Origin: Prochlorococcus marinus XMU1405
GTDB lineage: Bacteria; Cyanobacteriota; Cyanobacteriia; PCC-6307; Cyanobiaceae
Assembly (NCBI RefSeq): GCF_017696275.1
Contig: NZ_JAAORF010000003.1
Location: 496,001 to 560,000, forward strand
Length of the DNA: 64,000 nucleotides
Direction: 5' to 3'
Shown here: piece after piece, positions 14,244 to 20,917 of the stretch
How positions within the stretch are numbered: position 1 is the stretch's first letter
How the letters are laid out: each line of letters opens with the position of its first letter
The notes under the pieces: model-generated
Databases searched by the model: none
What the model saw: only the letters and a program-made list of their open reading frames with translations
Told to the model about the DNA's origin: nothing
Program-made: the position numbers and the translations under genes

Positions 14244-15473
14244 CTAAGATAACAAATGAAGGTTTATGGCATCTACGATTTTCTTACTTGCTCCGGATTC
14301 CCCCATTCTTTTTTTTCCAATTTTTGCTTGTTCTAACCTATCAACTTTTCCTTTTAAAAGTAAACTTAAACGTTTCAAAAGAATTTTTCTGTTCTTGCAA
14401 ACTAAAACACTACCTCCCAATAATCTTGATTGCCTTTTTGCAAATGATTTTGTAAATTGTGGTCCAGGTCCCGGTAGAGAAAGAGATGGAATTCCAAGGC
14501 CAGCAATTTGCTCTGTAGCAGTTCCTGCATTAGACAAACCAACTTCTGCCATATTGGCCCATGAATTGAATTTACCTTTTCCAATCACTACATATTGATC
14601 TTTCTTTTTCCATACTGAATCTTCATCAATAAGAAATTTAACTTTACTCTGTTTTATAAAACCATATTTATTTAAATAATTTTGAATTTGAATCACATTC
14701 GCATTAATACTCAAAGGCAAAAGTATTAATAAATCCTTTGATAAATCAAAATCTTGCAAACAATTTAGAAAATTATCAAGATTTTTAAGAGCTTCAGGGT
14801 ATCTACTTCCAACTAATAAAATAATCCTTTTAAAAGAAATAATATTTGATATCTTATCGTTTGTTACATTGACAAAATCCATCATTGGATTGCCCAAGTA
14901 TTTTGCATCAATATTTTTTTTATACAAATTATTAGCTGTAATTTTATCTCTCATAATTAAATTTTTACATCTTGGAGATTTCATTAAAAACATTTCCCAT
15001 GGATCCCATTCAGAACCTTTCAACTGATGATAAAAATCACTTAAATCCCAACCTGGCCCACTACTCCAAGTATGATCACTTTTTGGGGTTCCAATAAAAC
15101 TAAAGTCGCATTCTGAACTCCAAGCGTAGAGTAATGGCAAGAAATCGCCTACTGCGATAATTTTGCAGTTATGTTTTGACTTCTGTTTTACAAGTAGAAA
15201 ATTTCTTAAATTATCGATTAAAAATCCTGCTAAAAAATCAAGCACAAATCCCTTCAGACTTTGATTACTAAAACCTCCACTAGGCAGCTCTTTTAAATAT
15301 CCTATTTTATGAAAATTCTTTGATTTTATGGAATTAAATACATCTCCATTTCCTACTAACGGCAAAACTTCAATATTTTTATTTTTTATTTTTTTTAGTA
15401 ATCTTTTTATTATCTCCGATGCGATTACGTCTTCTCCATGACCATTGCATATAAATAATAGAGAATGAGACAC
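14244..15473 (-). CDS. LpxB-like glycosyltransferase (lipid-A-disaccharide synthase-related)
   Basis: The protein, about 409 residues from the proposed start, fits a cyanobacterial GT-B family related to LpxB. It begins LLFICNGHGEDVIASEII, contains SRYPEALKN and, in the nucleotide-sugar half, LSNAGTATEQIAGLGIPSLSLPGPGPQFT, which looks like the UDP-sugar-binding loop. The open frame extends upstream to 15656, but that part is antisense to the tRNA-Cys at 15516-15586. I therefore prefer the GTG at 15473-15471, which gives a start just before the conserved core. Substrate is unknown; a role in an envelope glycolipid is a guess from the family name. Confidence 0.75.
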   Translation of the reverse strand: MSHSLLFICNGHGEDVIASEIIKRLLKKIKNKNIEVLPLVGNGDVFNSIKSKNFHKIGYLKELPSGGFSNQSLKGFVLDFLAGFLIDNLRNFLLVKQKSKHNCKIIAVGDFLPLLYAWSSECDFSFIGTPKSDHTWSSGPGWDLSDFYHQLKGSEWDPWEMFLMKSPRCKNLIMRDKITANNLYKKNIDAKYLGNPMMDFVNVTNDKISNIISFKRIILLVGSRYPEALKNLDNFLNCLQDFDLSKDLLILLPLSINANVIQIQNYLNKYGFIKQSKVKFLIDEDSVWKKKDQYVVIGKGKFNSWANMAEVGLSNAGTATEQIAGLGIPSLSLPGPGPQFTKSFAKRQSRLLGGSVLVCKNRKILLKRLSLLLKGKVDRLEQAKIGKKRMGESGASKKIVDAINLHLLS

Positions 15474-15515
15474 CTTACTGTTAAGATCATAAAAAGACTC
15501 AATCGAATCTTTTTC

Positions 15516-15586
15516 GGCGGCATGGCCAAGTGGTAAGGCAGAGGATTGCAAATCCTTTATCCCCAGTTCGAATCTGGGTGCCGCCT
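15516..15586 (+). tRNA. tRNA-Cys (anticodon GCA)
   Basis: The 71-nt cloverleaf is clear: acceptor GGCGGCA pairs with TGCCGCC, anticodon stem AGGAT/ATCCT encloses TGCA within loop TTGCAAA with anticodon GCA, and the T arm is CCCAG TTCGAAT CTGGG. It lies antisense to the over-long upstream end of the LpxB-like frame. Its 3' end (15567-15587) is repeated exactly at 16894-16914 and imperfectly at 17078-17104, which marks it as a past integration target. Confidence 0.96.
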
Positions 15587-15674
15587 TCTTTATTTTGTCT
15601 ACACAATTCCCTATAAACCCTTCCAATACCTTAAGTTTTGAATATTTGTTATTCATCTAATACTTTAAAAAGTG

Positions 15675-15696
15675 GGATGGTAAGTGGATGGTGAGT
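15675..15696 (+). repeat. Pair of 11-bp direct repeats, candidate integrase arm-type sites
   Basis: GGATGGTAAGT is followed without spacer by GGATGGTGAGT. The pair lies 89 nt downstream of the tRNA-Cys 3' end. The same 11-mer recurs, with small changes, at 16813-16834 and 17002-17023 near the two tRNA-Cys 3' fragments, and inverted at 16744-16754. Regular 11-bp spacing next to a core site suggests binding sites for the arm-binding domain of a tyrosine recombinase; that role is inferred. Confidence 0.7.
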
Positions 15697-15899
15697 GGAG
15701 TTGTTTTTCCTTAAACAAATTATGCCTTCTTTACATTATCGCAGTTATCTTATTGACACTCAAAATTTATTATTGAATAAGATGGATTTCCGATACAAAA
15801 TATAACTAAAACTCAAAAACTATTATAGGTTTATTGAAATATCAAGGTTTGTCGCCTTTTGAAAAATATTCAGAAATTTCATTATGATGATTTTATTAA

Positions 15900-16655
15900 T
15901 TAAAGATGGTAATTTTTTGCATTAATCTGTTGGTTAATATAATTTAAAATAAGAATTTCTGTTTCACTAGATTTGCAATCATTTATATGAGTTAAATGAC
16001 CATTTTTACAATTATATCCGACTATATTTACATTTTTTGGATAAATTTCTGTTAAAAATTTTAATTCCTCTGGGCGATTATGACTATCATCTTCGTATGC
16101 AAAAACCAAAGCATCTATAACCTTTGCTTTTGTAATTTTTTTTATATGCGCAGGTCTTACTACTTTTCTCCACTTCGGATATTTTCTTATTTCATATCTT
16201 GGTCCTGCAAATGCAGGGGCGAAAACAATCGCACTGTTAAATAATTTTTCATTTTCTCTAAACATATGTAAAGCAGTCCATCCTCCAGCAGAAAACCCAC
16301 TTATAAAAATATTATTAGGATGTACTCCTATTTCATTTATTTCAGTAAGAAGTTTTTTTAACTGTCTCACTCTTTTATATATGTATGATCCTCGCCGGTA
16401 ATCGTTATCTATAGATTTAGAGCACATAAAAATAAAATGTGCATCAATTTCTTTTTCTAAATATTTTAAAGTTTTTGGTATTTTGTTAAAGTCAGCAGAA
16501 CATTTTTCCGATCTACGTACATTTGATTGCCCATGCCCCCAAATAATTACTACAGGATTTTTTCCCAAATCTAAATCTTCTCGTATGGACAAAAGATCAT
16601 TAGCATTAACTTTTATTGGTGATAACAATAGAAAAAATGCAATCAACCTTTTCAT
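15900..16655 (-). CDS. Secreted alpha/beta hydrolase-like protein
   Basis: From the ATG at 16655 the protein has 251 residues and opens with a good signal peptide (MKRLIAFFLLLSPIKVNAN, cut after about residue 19). An upstream in-frame ATG at 16685 would add ten residues before the signal and is less likely. The nucleophile elbow is GFSAGG, preceded by a strand NNIFISGF. A likely acid is in FAYEDDSHN and a likely His in NGHLTHIND. The fold resembles esterase/depolymerase-like hydrolases; substrate unknown. It is the only gene between the tRNA-Cys and its duplicated 3' end, so it is probably cargo acquired by integration. Two of its four cysteines (CKNGHLTHINDC) could pair outside the cytosol. 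Confidence 0.75.
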   Translation of the reverse strand: MKRLIAFFLLLSPIKVNANDLLSIREDLDLGKNPVVIIWGHGQSNVRRSEKCSADFNKIPKTLKYLEKEIDAHFIFMCSKSIDNDYRRGSYIYKRVRQLKKLLTEINEIGVHPNNIFISGFSAGGWTALHMFRENEKLFNSAIVFAPAFAGPRYEIRKYPKWRKVVRPAHIKKITKAKVIDALVFAYEDDSHNRPEELKFLTEIYPKNVNIVGYNCKNGHLTHINDCKSSETEILILNYINQQINAKNYHL

Positions 16656-16743
16656 AAAAAAATATTTTTCTAGGAAAACTTGCATAATTTACTAAATCCA
16701 ACTCATTAATTAATTATAAAGTTCTTCCTTTTTTGATTACTAA

Positions 16744-16754
16744 ACTCACCATCC
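16744..16754 (-). repeat. Inverted copy of the 11-bp repeat
   Basis: The plus strand reads ACTCACCATCC, the exact reverse complement of GGATGGTGAGT at 15686-15696. It lies 89 nt upstream of the hydrolase start codon and 59 nt before the second direct-repeat pair. An exact 11-nt match by chance in this short region is unlikely, but the role is not known. Confidence 0.55.
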
Positions 16755-16812
16755 TTCAGATTCAAAATGTCACTATTTGTTCTTACGTAGTTAATATTTT
16801 TATATTTTTCTT

Positions 16813-16842
16813 GGATGGTAAGCGGATGGTAACATACCATCC
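16813..16842 (+). repeat. Second 11-bp direct-repeat pair with an overlapping inverted arm
   Basis: GGATGGTAAGC (16813-16823) is followed directly by GGATGGTAACA (16824-16834), then TACCATCC (16835-16842), which is the reverse complement of GGATGGTA and forms a short hairpin with it. The group sits 51 nt before the exact copy of the tRNA-Cys 3' end. The order here is repeat then core, the mirror of the order at tRNA-Cys itself, as expected if the two flank one inserted element. Confidence 0.68.
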
Positions 16843-16893
16843 TTACACCTCAAGATCCCTAATATTACAGAGTTTTTGGGATTATTAACCCAC

Positions 16894-16914
16894 TTCGAAT
16901 CTGGGTGCCGCCTT
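16894..16914 (+). repeat. Exact 21-nt copy of the tRNA-Cys 3' end (candidate attR)
   Basis: The segment repeats the T loop, T-stem 3' strand, acceptor 3' strand and next base of tRNA-Cys (15567-15587) without mismatch; TTCGAATCTGGGTGCCGCCT is shared. The bases before it lack the rest of the tRNA, so it is a fragment and not a second gene. Such 3'-end duplications are the usual scar of integration into a tRNA gene. Confidence 0.75.
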
Positions 16915-17001
16915 TTTCAAATTAGTAAATAATTTCGCTGAAAAGCGTTCCAAGAACAAAAGTTTTTTGTAGCGATTTTCGTATTTCAAATCTTTCAGAC
17001 T

Positions 17002-17023
17002 GGGCGGTAAGTGGGCGGTAAGT
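17002..17023 (+). repeat. Third 11-bp direct-repeat pair
   Basis: GGGCGGTAAGT occurs twice in tandem with no spacer. It differs from the first pair mainly by AT to GC at positions 3-4 in both units, as if a different but related recombinase had its own version. It lies 60 nt before the imperfect tRNA-Cys fragment at 17078-17104. The stretch 16915-17311 otherwise holds no gene that I can support. Confidence 0.65.
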
Positions 17024-17077
17024 TGTTAATTTTTATCGCTTAAACTCTTGTTATATTCTCGTTTTCTAGCATTAATA

Positions 17078-17104
17078 CCCCAATTCGAATCAGGATGCTG
17101 CCTT
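17078..17104 (+). repeat. Imperfect copy of the tRNA-Cys 3' end (older candidate att scar)
   Basis: Twenty-three of 27 positions match tRNA-Cys 15561-15587, including TTCGAATC; four substitutions disrupt the T stem and acceptor pairing. It cannot be a functional tRNA. Distance and order relative to the 17002-17023 repeats are like those of the 16813-16914 site, which suggests an earlier, separate integration in the same direction. Confidence 0.6.
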
Positions 17105-17311
17105 ATTTAATTTTTAAGCATTTAATTATGAAATTTTTCTAAGAACTTCAATTTCAAATAAAGGGTATAAACTTTCAATTACTTATTGATATAAAGAACA
17201 ATAATCTTTTCTTTATTTTTTTAAATAATACCTGATATCCATTAATAAATAAAATTTAGTTAATTTATTAATTATTTTCATCAAATTATTGATATTAGAA
17301 TTTGAATTATT

Positions 17312-17479
17312 CTAGTAATCATTATCTGCTACACACATTCCTAAACATCTAACACCATTTGATGCAGTCCTTTTGCAATGATTACATAAAATGGGATCTT
17401 TCTCTGAAGTAAGGTTAATTTTTGAATTATTTTGGCCTTTAATACTTATTAACTCTTGTGTTGAATCAAATAGAGTCAT
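17312..17479 (-). CDS. Small four-cysteine protein, 55 residues
   Basis: The frame starts with ATG at 17479-17477, overlapping the last 14 nt of the upstream gene at 17466-18110 in another frame. The 55-residue product ends with CNHCKRTASNGVRCLGMC followed by VADNDY. The CxxC ... CxxxC spacing looks like a small zinc ribbon or metal-binding knuckle. A longer upstream reading of the same frame is possible but would run inside the neighbouring gene and shows poor composition. The overlap suggests translational coupling. I recall similar small cysteine proteins in picocyanobacteria, but no function is known to me. Confidence 0.65.
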   Translation of the reverse strand: MTLFDSTQELISIKGQNNSKINLTSEKDPILCNHCKRTASNGVRCLGMCVADNDY

Positions 17480-18110
17480 TCTTGGAATCATCACTTGAAT
17501 CGATACTAACAACAAGTGAAGCATTAGTGTTGGAAGAAGGTATATCCATAATTTTGACAGTTTCTTTAGGCTCTTCAATAACTTGATTTTCTTCAGTACT
17601 TTCATCAACTGCACAAGCTTCAAGAGCCTCTCGAAGTAGTGAATCAAAAGTTGCTCCAGGCAATCTATGTCTTGCAACCTCCAGAAAAGTTCTAGGTAAC
17701 GATTCAGATGCAGCATCTCGTAAAGCAGGATTATTCTTTCTATGTTCTTGTTCTTCTTCTATTGATTTAATAAACCTCAGTGTGACATCTCGTTTGGTAG
17801 AAGCTTTTATCAGCGTATCGGTTTCCGGATTACTAACATTAGGTTCATTTTCAAGATCACTAAGTCTTTTTTCCAAACTATTTAAAACTTCATTAGCTTC
17901 TTTACTAATATGCGCTAATTGACCATCGGACAAATTAGGTAAATCAGCGACAAAAACTTTCCCATGATCTCTTAGTGTCAAGAAAGTTGGCCTTGGGCCT
18001 TGAGCCTGTCTACCAATTGATTCGGAATTATTACCTATTGGTCTTTTTGGAGGTGTAGGACCAGCTGAACTACGTCTACGTGTAATTCTTTGATTATTTG
18101 CAAAGGGCAT
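17466..18110 (-). CDS. Conserved hypothetical protein, largely cyanobacterial
   Basis: Not recognised as a named family. The 214-residue protein has a basic, proline-rich N-terminus (RRRSSAGPTPPKRP), then a core of about residues 40-170 with TFLTLRDHGKVFVADLPNLSDGQLAHI and a charged helical coil EANEVLNSLEKRLSDLENE, and an acidic serine-rich tail (SIDSSDDSKNDSI). The N-terminal arginine cluster could bind nucleic acid; this is only a composition-based thought. No membrane segment. Its end overlaps the small four-cysteine gene, so both are probably one transcript. Coding is well supported by length and codon use. Confidence 0.75.
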   Translation of the reverse strand: MPFANNQRITRRRSSAGPTPPKRPIGNNSESIGRQAQGPRPTFLTLRDHGKVFVADLPNLSDGQLAHISKEANEVLNSLEKRLSDLENEPNVSNPETDTLIKASTKRDVTLRFIKSIEEEQEHRKNNPALRDAASESLPRTFLEVARHRLPGATFDSLLREALEACAVDESTEENQVIEEPKETVKIMDIPSSNTNASLVVSIDSSDDSKNDSI

Positions 18111-19384: not shown

Positions 19385-20917
19385 GTGAAGAAAGTAATCA
19401 TTAGGAAAACTGAAGAAATAAAAAATTGGAGGAGAAATATAAATAGTGAAATTAACTTCATTCCAACAATGGGTAATCTTCATGATGGTCATATTAAACT
19501 TATATCAACAGCAAAAAATGACAATTCTAATGTTAATTTAGTAAGTATTTTTATTAATCCACTTCAATTTGATAACAAGTTAGATTTAGAGAATTACCCT
19601 AAAACAGTTGATAATGATATAAAAATCTCCTTTTCAAATGGCGCAGATGCTATCTTCATCCCAAGTAATGAAGATATATATCCACCGAATAATAAAAATA
19701 TTAAATTCCTAAAAGCTCCAAAAGAATTATCTTCTGCATTATGTGGATTAAATCGAATTGGACATTTTGATGGCGTTTGTACAGTAGTTTATAGATTACT
19801 TAATCTCATCAAGCCAAAAAATCTTTACTTAGGAGAAAAAGATTGGCAACAACTTTTAATTTTAAAAAATCTTGTTCTTAGAATGAAATTAAATGTTACT
19901 ATTAAATCCATTCCTACACAAAGAGATTTTGATGGAATTCCTTTAAGTTCACGTAATGTACATTTATCAAAAAAAGAAAGAAAATTGATTAAGTTTTTTT
20001 CAAGTGAGTTATTAGAAGCAAAAAAAAATTTTCAACAAGATAAAAAGATCCATTTAAACCAAATAATTAAGAAGCTATCAGCAAAAAAAATTTCAATTGA
20101 ATATTTAGAACATTTACACCCTTATACACTCCAAAAAGCAAGACTTGAGGATAATATTTCGTTATTGGCTGGTGCGATAAGATGTGGAGAGACAAGATTA
20201 ATTGATCACGTTTTTCTAATGAAAAGAAGGCCGATTATTGCAATTGATGGTCCTGCAGGTTCAGGTAAAAGTACTGTAACAAAGTTAATAGCGAAGAAAC
20301 TTAAACTTTTATATTTAGATACTGGCGCAATGTATAGGGCATTGAGTTGGCTTATGATAAAAGAAAGTATTAACTATAAAAAAGAAAAAAATTTACAGAA
20401 TATTCTTAAAGGTATATCTATAGTTTTCAAGTCGAATACAAATTCACATCAGGATGTTTATGTTAATAACTACTGTGTTACTGAAGAAATTAGATCGCAA
20501 AAGATAAGTTCCATCGTTTCTAAAATTTCCTCAATAAAAGAAGTAAGAGAATTCTTAGTAGAAGAACAAAGAAAAATTGGAGAATCAGGCGGACTTGTAG
20601 CTGAGGGAAGAGATATAGGAACTACTGTTTTTCCTCATGCAGAACTTAAAATATTTTTAACTGCTAGCATCGATGAAAGAGCAAAAAGAAGAAAATCTGA
20701 TAAAAATAGTAAAGACTCACAAGAAATAGACCTTCATACATTAAAAGAACTTATAAAGAAAAGAGATTTTGAAGATTCCAATAGGGAAATTTCGCCTCTA
20801 ATTAAGGCGAATGATGCAATAGAAATTATTACCGACGGATATACAATTTATGAGGTAGTGGATAAAATTATTGACCTTTACAATGACAAGATTCCTAAAG
20901 AGACTGAGATCAAATAA
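19385..20917 (+). CDS. panC/cmk: Bifunctional pantoate-beta-alanine ligase / cytidylate kinase
   Basis: Two enzymes are fused in 510 residues. Residues 1 to about 278 are PanC, which joins pantoate and beta-alanine for coenzyme A; the motif PTMGNLHDGHIKLI and LGEKDWQQL are visible. From about 280 the cytidylate kinase begins (IAIDGPAGSGKSTVTKLIA, YLDTGAMYRAL, GRDIGTTVFPHA), phosphorylating CMP/dCMP. The fusion is known in cyanobacteria. The start is GTG at 19385; no in-frame ATG fits ahead of the conserved PanC N-terminus. The convergent phosphatase stop is 2 nt away. Confidence 0.96.
   Translation: MKKVIIRKTEEIKNWRRNINSEINFIPTMGNLHDGHIKLISTAKNDNSNVNLVSIFINPLQFDNKLDLENYPKTVDNDIKISFSNGADAIFIPSNEDIYPPNNKNIKFLKAPKELSSALCGLNRIGHFDGVCTVVYRLLNLIKPKNLYLGEKDWQQLLILKNLVLRMKLNVTIKSIPTQRDFDGIPLSSRNVHLSKKERKLIKFFSSELLEAKKNFQQDKKIHLNQIIKKLSAKKISIEYLEHLHPYTLQKARLEDNISLLAGAIRCGETRLIDHVFLMKRRPIIAIDGPAGSGKSTVTKLIAKKLKLLYLDTGAMYRALSWLMIKESINYKKEKNLQNILKGISIVFKSNTNSHQDVYVNNYCVTEEIRSQKISSIVSKISSIKEVREFLVEEQRKIGESGGLVAEGRDIGTTVFPHAELKIFLTASIDERAKRRKSDKNSKDSQEIDLHTLKELIKKRDFEDSNREISPLIKANDAIEIITDGYTIYEVVDKIIDLYNDKIPKETEIK

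Follow-up and report, generated by a model that had tools for sequence, protein, structure and literature searches.

A tRNA-Cys integration site of Prochlorococcus with a probable tandem of two non-autonomous units

The tRNA-Cys locus and its empty and occupied states

The stretch analysed here, 64,000 bp of the forward strand of Prochlorococcus marinus XMU1405 (assembly GCF_017696275.1, contig NZ_JAAORF010000003.1, positions 496,001–560,000; the window), contains a tRNA-Cys gene followed by two copies of its own 3′ end. These copies divide the downstream DNA into two units, which are probably non-autonomous units, arranged in tandem, of a picocyanobacterial element whose integrase acts at tRNA-Cys. 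Coordinates are window positions, G and L numbers label the genus genomes and loci compared, and G000 is the genome (1.67 Mb) that holds the window. The locus comprises the following features:

14244–15656, minus strand: LpxB-like flanking open reading frame (ORF), left anchor of the site (Pfam LpxB 0.00044, below the cut-off)
15516–15586, plus strand: tRNA-Cys (GCA), the integration target (ARAGORN)
15567–15587, plus strand: core 1, the tRNA-Cys 3′ end and left boundary of unit 1 (attL-like; 21-mer repeat comparison)
15588–16914, no strand: unit 1, 1,327 bp, consisting of left arm, one cargo gene, right arm and core 2
15675–15695, plus strand: left arm of unit 1, direct 10-mers GGATGGTAAG/GGATGGTGAG with a period of 11, 88 bp past the tRNA end
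15900–16685, minus strand: cargo gene of unit 1, 261 amino acids (aa), the sole gene between cores 1 and 2 (ORF list)
16745–16754, minus strand: inverted arm copy CTCACCATCC in the right arm of unit 1
16813–16833, plus strand: right arm of unit 1, direct 10-mers GGATGGTAAG/GGATGGTAAC with a period of 11, 77 bp ahead of the distal core
16894–16914, plus strand: core 2, an exact 21/21 copy of the tRNA-Cys 3′ end that closes unit 1 and opens unit 2
16915–17104, no strand: unit 2, 190 bp, a probable gene-less solo-att scar of the GGGCGGTAAG type
17002–17022, plus strand: arm repeat GGGCGGTAAGTGGGCGGTAAG of unit 2, common to its left and right arms
17084–17104, plus strand: core 3, a decayed copy with 3 mismatches in 21, the original insertion boundary
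17105–17465, no strand: original flank of the empty site (match to the empty sites of relatives)
17466–18110, minus strand: conserved flanking ORF, right anchor of the site

The 21-mer at 15567–15587 found no match in 100 dinucleotide shuffles of the window (chance expectation 0.00), and the exact 19-mer of the core occurs twice in the whole genome (reversed control, 0). Arm-like repeats are present at 15675–15695 (GGATGGTAAGTGGATGGTGAG), 16813–16833 (GGATGGTAAGCGGATGGTAAC) and 17002–17022 (GGGCGGTAAGTGGGCGGTAAG), and these three are all the matches to the arm-repeat pattern in G000, for which the control gave 1 match. A preliminary description of this DNA had reported an exact copy of the tRNA end at 16894–16914, a degraded second copy, and a layout of repeats around one gene. 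The exact copy was confirmed, the degraded one has four mismatches in 27 counted from 17078, equal to the three in 21 of core 3, and the repeats are real, with a single gene between the first two cores. The units are, however, not nested as the description had it: they lie serially, and the second is gene-less, the ORF list containing no gene between cores 2 and 3.

The interval between tRNA-Cys and the conserved ORF at 17466–18110 was compared across genus genomes, comprising all 76 matching genomes of an even 101-genome sample (window included), all remaining genomes with two core copies, and most, not all, of the rest. A site of 446 bp or less with no second core was taken as empty. The exact 19-mer is found in 204 of 266 genus genomes and in two copies in 21, with the copies of G233 and G252 sitting on different contigs. 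Both flanks are visible in 181 genomes, where 96 sites are empty and 85 are longer, five of the latter by less than 50 bp, which may be plain length variation. The 367-bp tail of the window, from core 3 to the ORF, matches empty sites with a best identity of 96.7% (G199), a median of 89.5% and a worst value of 52%; core 3 is thus the original boundary, and 15588–17104 was inserted. The interval is an integration site, empty in 96 of the 181 relatives, and, where the far end of an insert can be made out, the insert lies between copies of the tRNA 3′ end. The tRNA-Cys gene is a busy docking site where units, most of them without an integration enzyme of their own, come and go.

The census of empty and occupied sites, together with the match of the tail to empty sites, supports the serial integration of units 1 and 2. 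The differing arm types of the two units and the greater decay of core 3 likewise agree with the two successive integrations proposed in the preliminary description. It had suggested looking for relatives that cleanly lack the insert and for a recombinase between tRNA-Cys and a copy of its 3′ end: the former are the empty sites, and the latter was found in G157, G196 and G247. The same arrangement in all strains, which it had named as the case against integration, is not what the genus presents; both empty and extended sites were seen instead.

Attachment-site anatomy and the recombinase of full elements

The left arm is marked by two direct 10-mers at +85 to +99 from the tRNA end, found at 49 of 91 occupied and 1 of 97 empty sites (counts that include open contigs); 48 of these 49 have a period of 11. 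In the right arm, a pair of this kind begins 74–78 bp upstream of the distal core. An inverted copy with at most 2 mismatches is found in 26 of 29 right arms (shuffles, 2), at 55–71 bp further out, and in 15 of 28 left arms (shuffles, 0), at 56–70 bp further in with one exception at 113. The repeats fall into types, namely GGATGGTAAG, GGGCGGT(A/T)AG, GGTCGGCAAG, GGTAGGTGAG, GGACAGCAAG, GGACGGT(A/C)AG and GGTAGGAAAG. Left and right arms of the same unit match in type, with a mean distance of 0.44 against 2.75 when permuted (22 units, p 5e-5; two solo units, where one repeat represents both arms, are left out), and the match persists with one unit per left-arm type (n = 12, 0.58 against 2.82, p 5e-5). 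The worst fit is the hybrid-looking G258, and in G029 a left arm of another type is seemingly joined to a GGACAGCAAG-type right arm. Well-kept ends thus carry arm repeats at fixed distances, and the two ends of a unit share a type with few exceptions. The 20-mer of the GGATGGTAAG type has 7 matches in 266 genomes (in G000, G170, G196 and G233), all of them close to a tRNA-Cys core.

Full elements whose ends are of this general kind are present in G157, G196 and G247, with 7.1–9.5 kb between tRNA-Cys and the distal core, and in each an ORF of 459–462 aa adjoins that core. Residues R283, K312, R391-H392, N417 and Y429 are invariant in seven sequences of this protein (one partial) and may be read as the active site of a tyrosine recombinase. 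An AlphaFold model (predicted local distance difference test, pLDDT, 79; predicted TM-score, pTM, 0.52) retrieved 12 chains at E ≤ 0.001 with Foldseek, all of them tyrosine recombinases (Tn1549 Int, XerH, lambda Int and XerA). Thus, the full elements encode a divergent tyrosine-recombinase-like protein, referred to below as the integrase. Additionally, all three contain a PF00239 small serine recombinase. A scan of GTDB located 21 integrase loci in Prochlorococcus, Synechococcus and Vulcanococcus: 10 have a tRNA-Cys core adjacent to the gene, 4 a tRNA-Phe gene and a copy of its 3′ end, 1 a tRNA-Phe gene only and 1 a tRNA-Phe 3′-end copy beside the integrase, the remaining 5 being without an assigned tRNA.

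PF00589 was tried as an integrase marker and rejected, as it misses the integrase of this site; the absence of the enzyme was therefore re-tested with one family member as the query (E 0.001). This query matches 8 of 266 genus genomes and nothing in the whole of G000, and the ORF list holds no recombinase in the window or its units, so the earlier statement that the window lacks an integrase extends, for this family, to the genome. The units likewise contain no serine recombinase, the cargo gene being the only long ORF of unit 1. The integrase had no match in phage records, and none was confirmed in viral contigs. The window DNA matched phage records 5 times, in each case at the tRNA portion of the query, and the tRNA-Cys core occurs in 3 viral contigs, for which no arm repeats of the site's kind are listed. 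The only PF00589 match of G000 lies at C1:471987–472409, inside a 389-aa reading frame, and frames of 370–399 aa with a PF00589 match are present in 20 of 31 genomes examined.

Integrase and arm type are correlated across 13 of the 21 loci (Mantel rho 0.45, p 0.0006), which is also expected from simple co-descent. Judging by the matching of arm types, each integrase may act on its own type. At L164:6100–7302 (Prochlorococcus W8, G122), a GGTAGGTGAG-type right arm stands ahead of a decayed tRNA-Phe-like core, about 1 kb from an integrase gene that adjoins an exact tRNA-Phe 3′ end; an arm type may here have switched its target tRNA.

The two units, their cargo and their origin

Unit 1 is of the GGATGGTAAG type, as is the full element of G196. 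Its left flank is closest to those of G170 (82.8% identity) and G196 (79.1%), and its right flank to that of G196 (75.9%), G170 being at 62.1%. It may still be mobilisable, since cores 1 and 2 are intact and five of the six expected arm sites are recognisable. The cargo product is probably a secreted α/β-hydrolase-like protein, as judged from a hydrophobic N-terminus and a GFSAGG elbow, both read by eye, and a Pfam match to Hydrolase_4 (1.4e-5, 25 bits) that falls below the cut-off of 27. The single-sequence fold (pLDDT 41) was too poor for use, and the hydrolase class consequently relies on weak, sub-threshold matches. The gene is found in 1 of 266 genus genomes and in 2 of 400 genomes of the wider family, the second being a weak partial match (27%), and was not confirmed in any viral contig.

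Unit 2 differs from unit 1 in arm type (GGGCGGTAAG). Its left flank is closest to those of G165 and G047 (80.9% identity) and G157 (77.8%), and its right flank to those of G047 (84.2%) and G157 (82.8%). Since one repeat serves both arms, unit 2 can be described as left and right arms fused at their common repeat. A counterpart of the GGTCGGCAAG type in G135 consists of two parts, which match the ends of the 1.7-kb cargo-bearing unit of G025 at 98.3% and 96.1% identity. Both unit 2 and the G135 unit are thus candidate solo-att scars, formed by fusion of the arms at the repeat, with G135 as an independent case. The G025/G135 pair was at one point taken for lateral transfer on the basis of one host gene (77% identity, left flank). 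The host genes of the right flank are 85–95% identical, so a single host gene can mislead as a yardstick of divergence, and the pair is kept only as evidence on how solo units form. Solo-att scars are a minority, as short inserts mostly keep the left arm and rarely the right; those without a distal core (e.g. L106, L092 and L140) seem to decay from the distal end.

Cargo ORFs were found mechanically with a threshold of 70 aa. The 85 complete occupied sites include 35 without such an ORF and 25 with exactly one, and the integrase is undetected in 82 (up to five of these are the sites longer by less than 50 bp). The preliminary description had considered a single-gene cargo of about 1.3 kb unusually small; with one ORF at 25 sites and none at 35, this does not hold, and single-gene, integrase-less units are a common state of the site. 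Clustering of 142 ORFs from 95 loci (partial ones included) gave 96 clusters, 76 of them singletons. The largest, with 13 members, codes for a protein of polysaccharide export (Poly_export and SLBB domains in the one member tested), and its arms, where they can be read, mostly belong to the GGACAGCAAG type; it forms a recurring integrase-less cassette at tRNA-Cys (L120, L044, L048, L074 and nine further loci). The Spearman correlation between these cassettes and host divergence is −0.10 (66 pairs, p 0.44).

An identity of 85% or more over 150 bp or more is shared by 73 pairs of loci, and 14 of these exceed the mean of the neighbouring host genes by at least 10 points. Seven of the 14 rest on both host genes; three involve G046 and were discounted because its host stretch seemed misaligned. 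G145 and G156 are 94.2% identical over 656 bp, compared to 76–83% in four host genes, and G110 and G167 are 88% identical over 367 bp, compared to 70–77% in host genes. In G006 and G143, the right ends are 98.7% identical over 156 bp while the cargo differs (single host gene, 75.6%). These similarities support lateral movement of ends and cargo, and also that ends have exchanged some of their cargo. That integrase-less units move as such, in trans, is a plausible idea that goes beyond them. A multi-gene block at tRNA-Cys is common to G070 and G162 (L045 and L146; about 82% over 4.2 kb, host genes 76–90%).

Of 229 genomes searched for the 3′ end of tRNA-Phe, 182 match, and 22 of these have it in two exact copies. 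The 12 same-contig pairs with listed positions are 0.8–5.3 kb apart (examples are G075 C4:165175–166039 and L163:3617 and 8938), and the integrase was found in only 4 of the 22 genomes. The same cassette behaviour probably occurs at tRNA-Phe.

If the region is a tandem of non-autonomous units, as we favour, unit 2 would have been the first to arrive and would have shrunk to 190 bp when its left and right arms, which are direct repeats, recombined with each other, in the way that a long terminal repeat (LTR) element is reduced to a solo LTR. Unit 1 would have come later with its one hydrolase gene, either mobilised in trans by a visiting integrase of the G196 type or trimmed after arrival. Like lambda Int, the recombinase would use its N-terminal part to bind the arm repeats, and it would exchange DNA inside the T-loop/3′ acceptor core, so that the tRNA would be rebuilt. 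More generally, we tentatively propose a cassette system at tRNA-Cys (and tRNA-Phe), in which single genes framed by a tRNA core and matched, 11-bp-spaced arms would be moved in trans by occasional integrase elements that share their arm type. The arm sequence would serve as an address tag, and recombination between arms would shuffle cargo and leave solo-att scars. We consider this wider proposal possible rather than probable.

Several observations weigh against these interpretations. Excision and integration are read here from sequences alone. At the threshold used, 42 of the 91 occupied sites have no left-arm repeat, and a reversed-letter control of the GGATGGTAAG 20-mer gave 9 matches in 8 genomes, eight of them GGTAGGTGAG-type arms that happen to spell the reversed pattern and the ninth (G233) not located. 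The integrase ORFs tested had no recombinase match in Pfam, PHROGs, NCBIfam or a PDB profile search, and the TM-scores of the model (itself at pTM 0.52) are low, at 0.25–0.47. Only two solo-att units were found, and among 28 short inserts, chosen for the lack of a long core-bounded unit, a left arm was recognisable in 23 and a right arm in 2 (scores judged by eye). Unit 1 has no recognisable inverted copy (at most 2 mismatches) on its left side, and its left and right arm flanks are only 79–83% and 62–76% identical to those of other GGATGGTAAG-type units, and so it may be old and inactive. For this unit, decay in place and arrival in trans are indistinguishable.

It is quite conceivable, if short of an even chance, that decay explains everything, both units being larger integrase elements that were hollowed out after landing, with no movement of units lacking their own integrase. 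There are full elements whose ends are built alike (G196, G247 and G157), unit 2 and G135 resemble deletions at arm repeats, 35 of the 85 occupied sites have no ORF above the threshold, and some of the stretches common to distant hosts span one end of a unit only (G006/G143 and G145/G156). On such an account, however, one has to accommodate the 82 of 85 complete occupied sites in which no integrase was detected, as well as integrase-less stretches that are more alike than their hosts (G145/G156 and G110/G167). Another account, somewhat doubtful in our view, would have integrase-less units move only when an adjacent integrase element excises the whole tandem, as in the accretion model of cis-mobilisable elements (CIMEs) described for integrative and conjugative elements (ICEs) and integrative and mobilisable elements (IMEs; accessible text of PMC5704250). 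The tandem in the window is of this form; in G131, an integrase element precedes what to the eye is a decayed GGTAGGTGAG-type unit, and G143, G167, G170 and G111 show a further left arm past the first distal core. The matching of arm types points instead to an integrase that acts on its own type, and with 82 of 85 occupied sites lacking a detected integrase, no resident helper is seen beside the units.

That the units are remnants of tycheposons sensu Hackl et al. is improbable. Genus, tRNA target and cargo genes are alike, but the size cited for tycheposons in PMC10872708 is 4–200 kb compared to 1,327 and 190 bp here, the units contain no recombinase ORF, and the single PF00589 match of G000 lies elsewhere, on contig C1. 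Furthermore, the integrases at tRNA-Cys and tRNA-Phe are stated to be distinct from those of tycheposons (accessible text of PMC10187409). Chance repeats, or a local duplication of the tRNA end without site-specific recombination, are a negligible prospect. The copies are short, which is all that speaks for this idea; the absence of matches in the shuffles led us to reject chance, and the empty sites, fixed arm spacing and matched arm types also stand against it.

Beyond the site, the LpxB-like ORF as listed crosses tRNA-Cys in antisense, and its true start is probably further in. A 510-aa ORF at 19385–20917 has, by eye, the look of a fused pantothenate synthetase and cytidylate kinase, a fusion that we take to be typical of cyanobacteria.

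Comparison with known systems

The accessible text of a 2023 preprint (PMC10187409) describes a picocyanobacterial tyrosine integrase family (cluster158946) beside tRNA-Phe or tRNA-Cys, distinct from the integrases of tycheposons and of virion-encapsidated integrative mobile elements (VEIMEs), often with a small serine recombinase nearby and with a mobilisation mechanism called not yet known. Judged by the properties described for it, the full elements of G157, G196 and G247 fit this family: genera, both tRNAs, an integrase missed by Pfam and PHROGs, the serine recombinase and variable cargo are alike. The remark in the preliminary description on known mobile units at tRNA sites in Prochlorococcus calls for a correction: the relatives that have an integrase fit this published element, which its authors set apart from tycheposons. 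The units of the window share with cluster158946 elements the location at tRNA-Cys, but contain neither integrase nor serine recombinase. What they have in common with integrase-bearing elements are the ends, as defined here by core and arm repeats, unit 1 with G196 and unit 2 with G157. In its accessible part, the preprint does not describe attachment-site anatomy, integrase-less cassettes or solo scars.

CIMEs, as far as the accessible text of PMC5704250 describes them, resemble the window units in keeping attL and attR, having lost the integration genes and forming tandem arrays, and unit 1 shows these traits, with attL and attR sites recognised from sequence and integration genes gone. CIMEs derive from ICEs or IMEs, whereas most units here are smaller than 3 kb, have typed arms and would depend on a cyanobacterial tRNA-Cys integrase as helper. 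The ssrA islands of Dehalococcoides also stand in tandem between copies of the 3′ end of an RNA gene, and 15 lack an integration module, but they use a serine recombinase and a transfer-messenger RNA target (accessible text of PMC3146451). The "additive" cassette islands at tRNA genes of Alteromonas, Actinomarinales and Methylopumilus share the tRNA target and 3′-end repeats and differ in that the accessible texts link neither a recombinase nor arm sites to the cassettes (PMC4119200, PMC7771536 and PMC10872708).

A text search of the literature, mostly at the level of titles and listings, found neither the arm types nor integrase-less units at this site nor solo-att scars described. We therefore provisionally regard the fixed attachment anatomy with typed, 11-bp-spaced arms, the common single-gene integrase-less units and the solo-att scar as new. 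Core, arm sites, spacing and type pairing together make a defined substrate that is testable in vitro. Should the units move in trans, a large part of the single-gene variation in a very abundant phototroph could spread without a mobility gene for each gene, and the arm type would allow one to predict the helper that mobilises a given gene. Attachment sites of the lambda type consist of a core and distant arm-type sites for one tyrosine integrase. Unlike in lambda, the arm sequences of the tRNA-Cys site vary between elements as matched sets.

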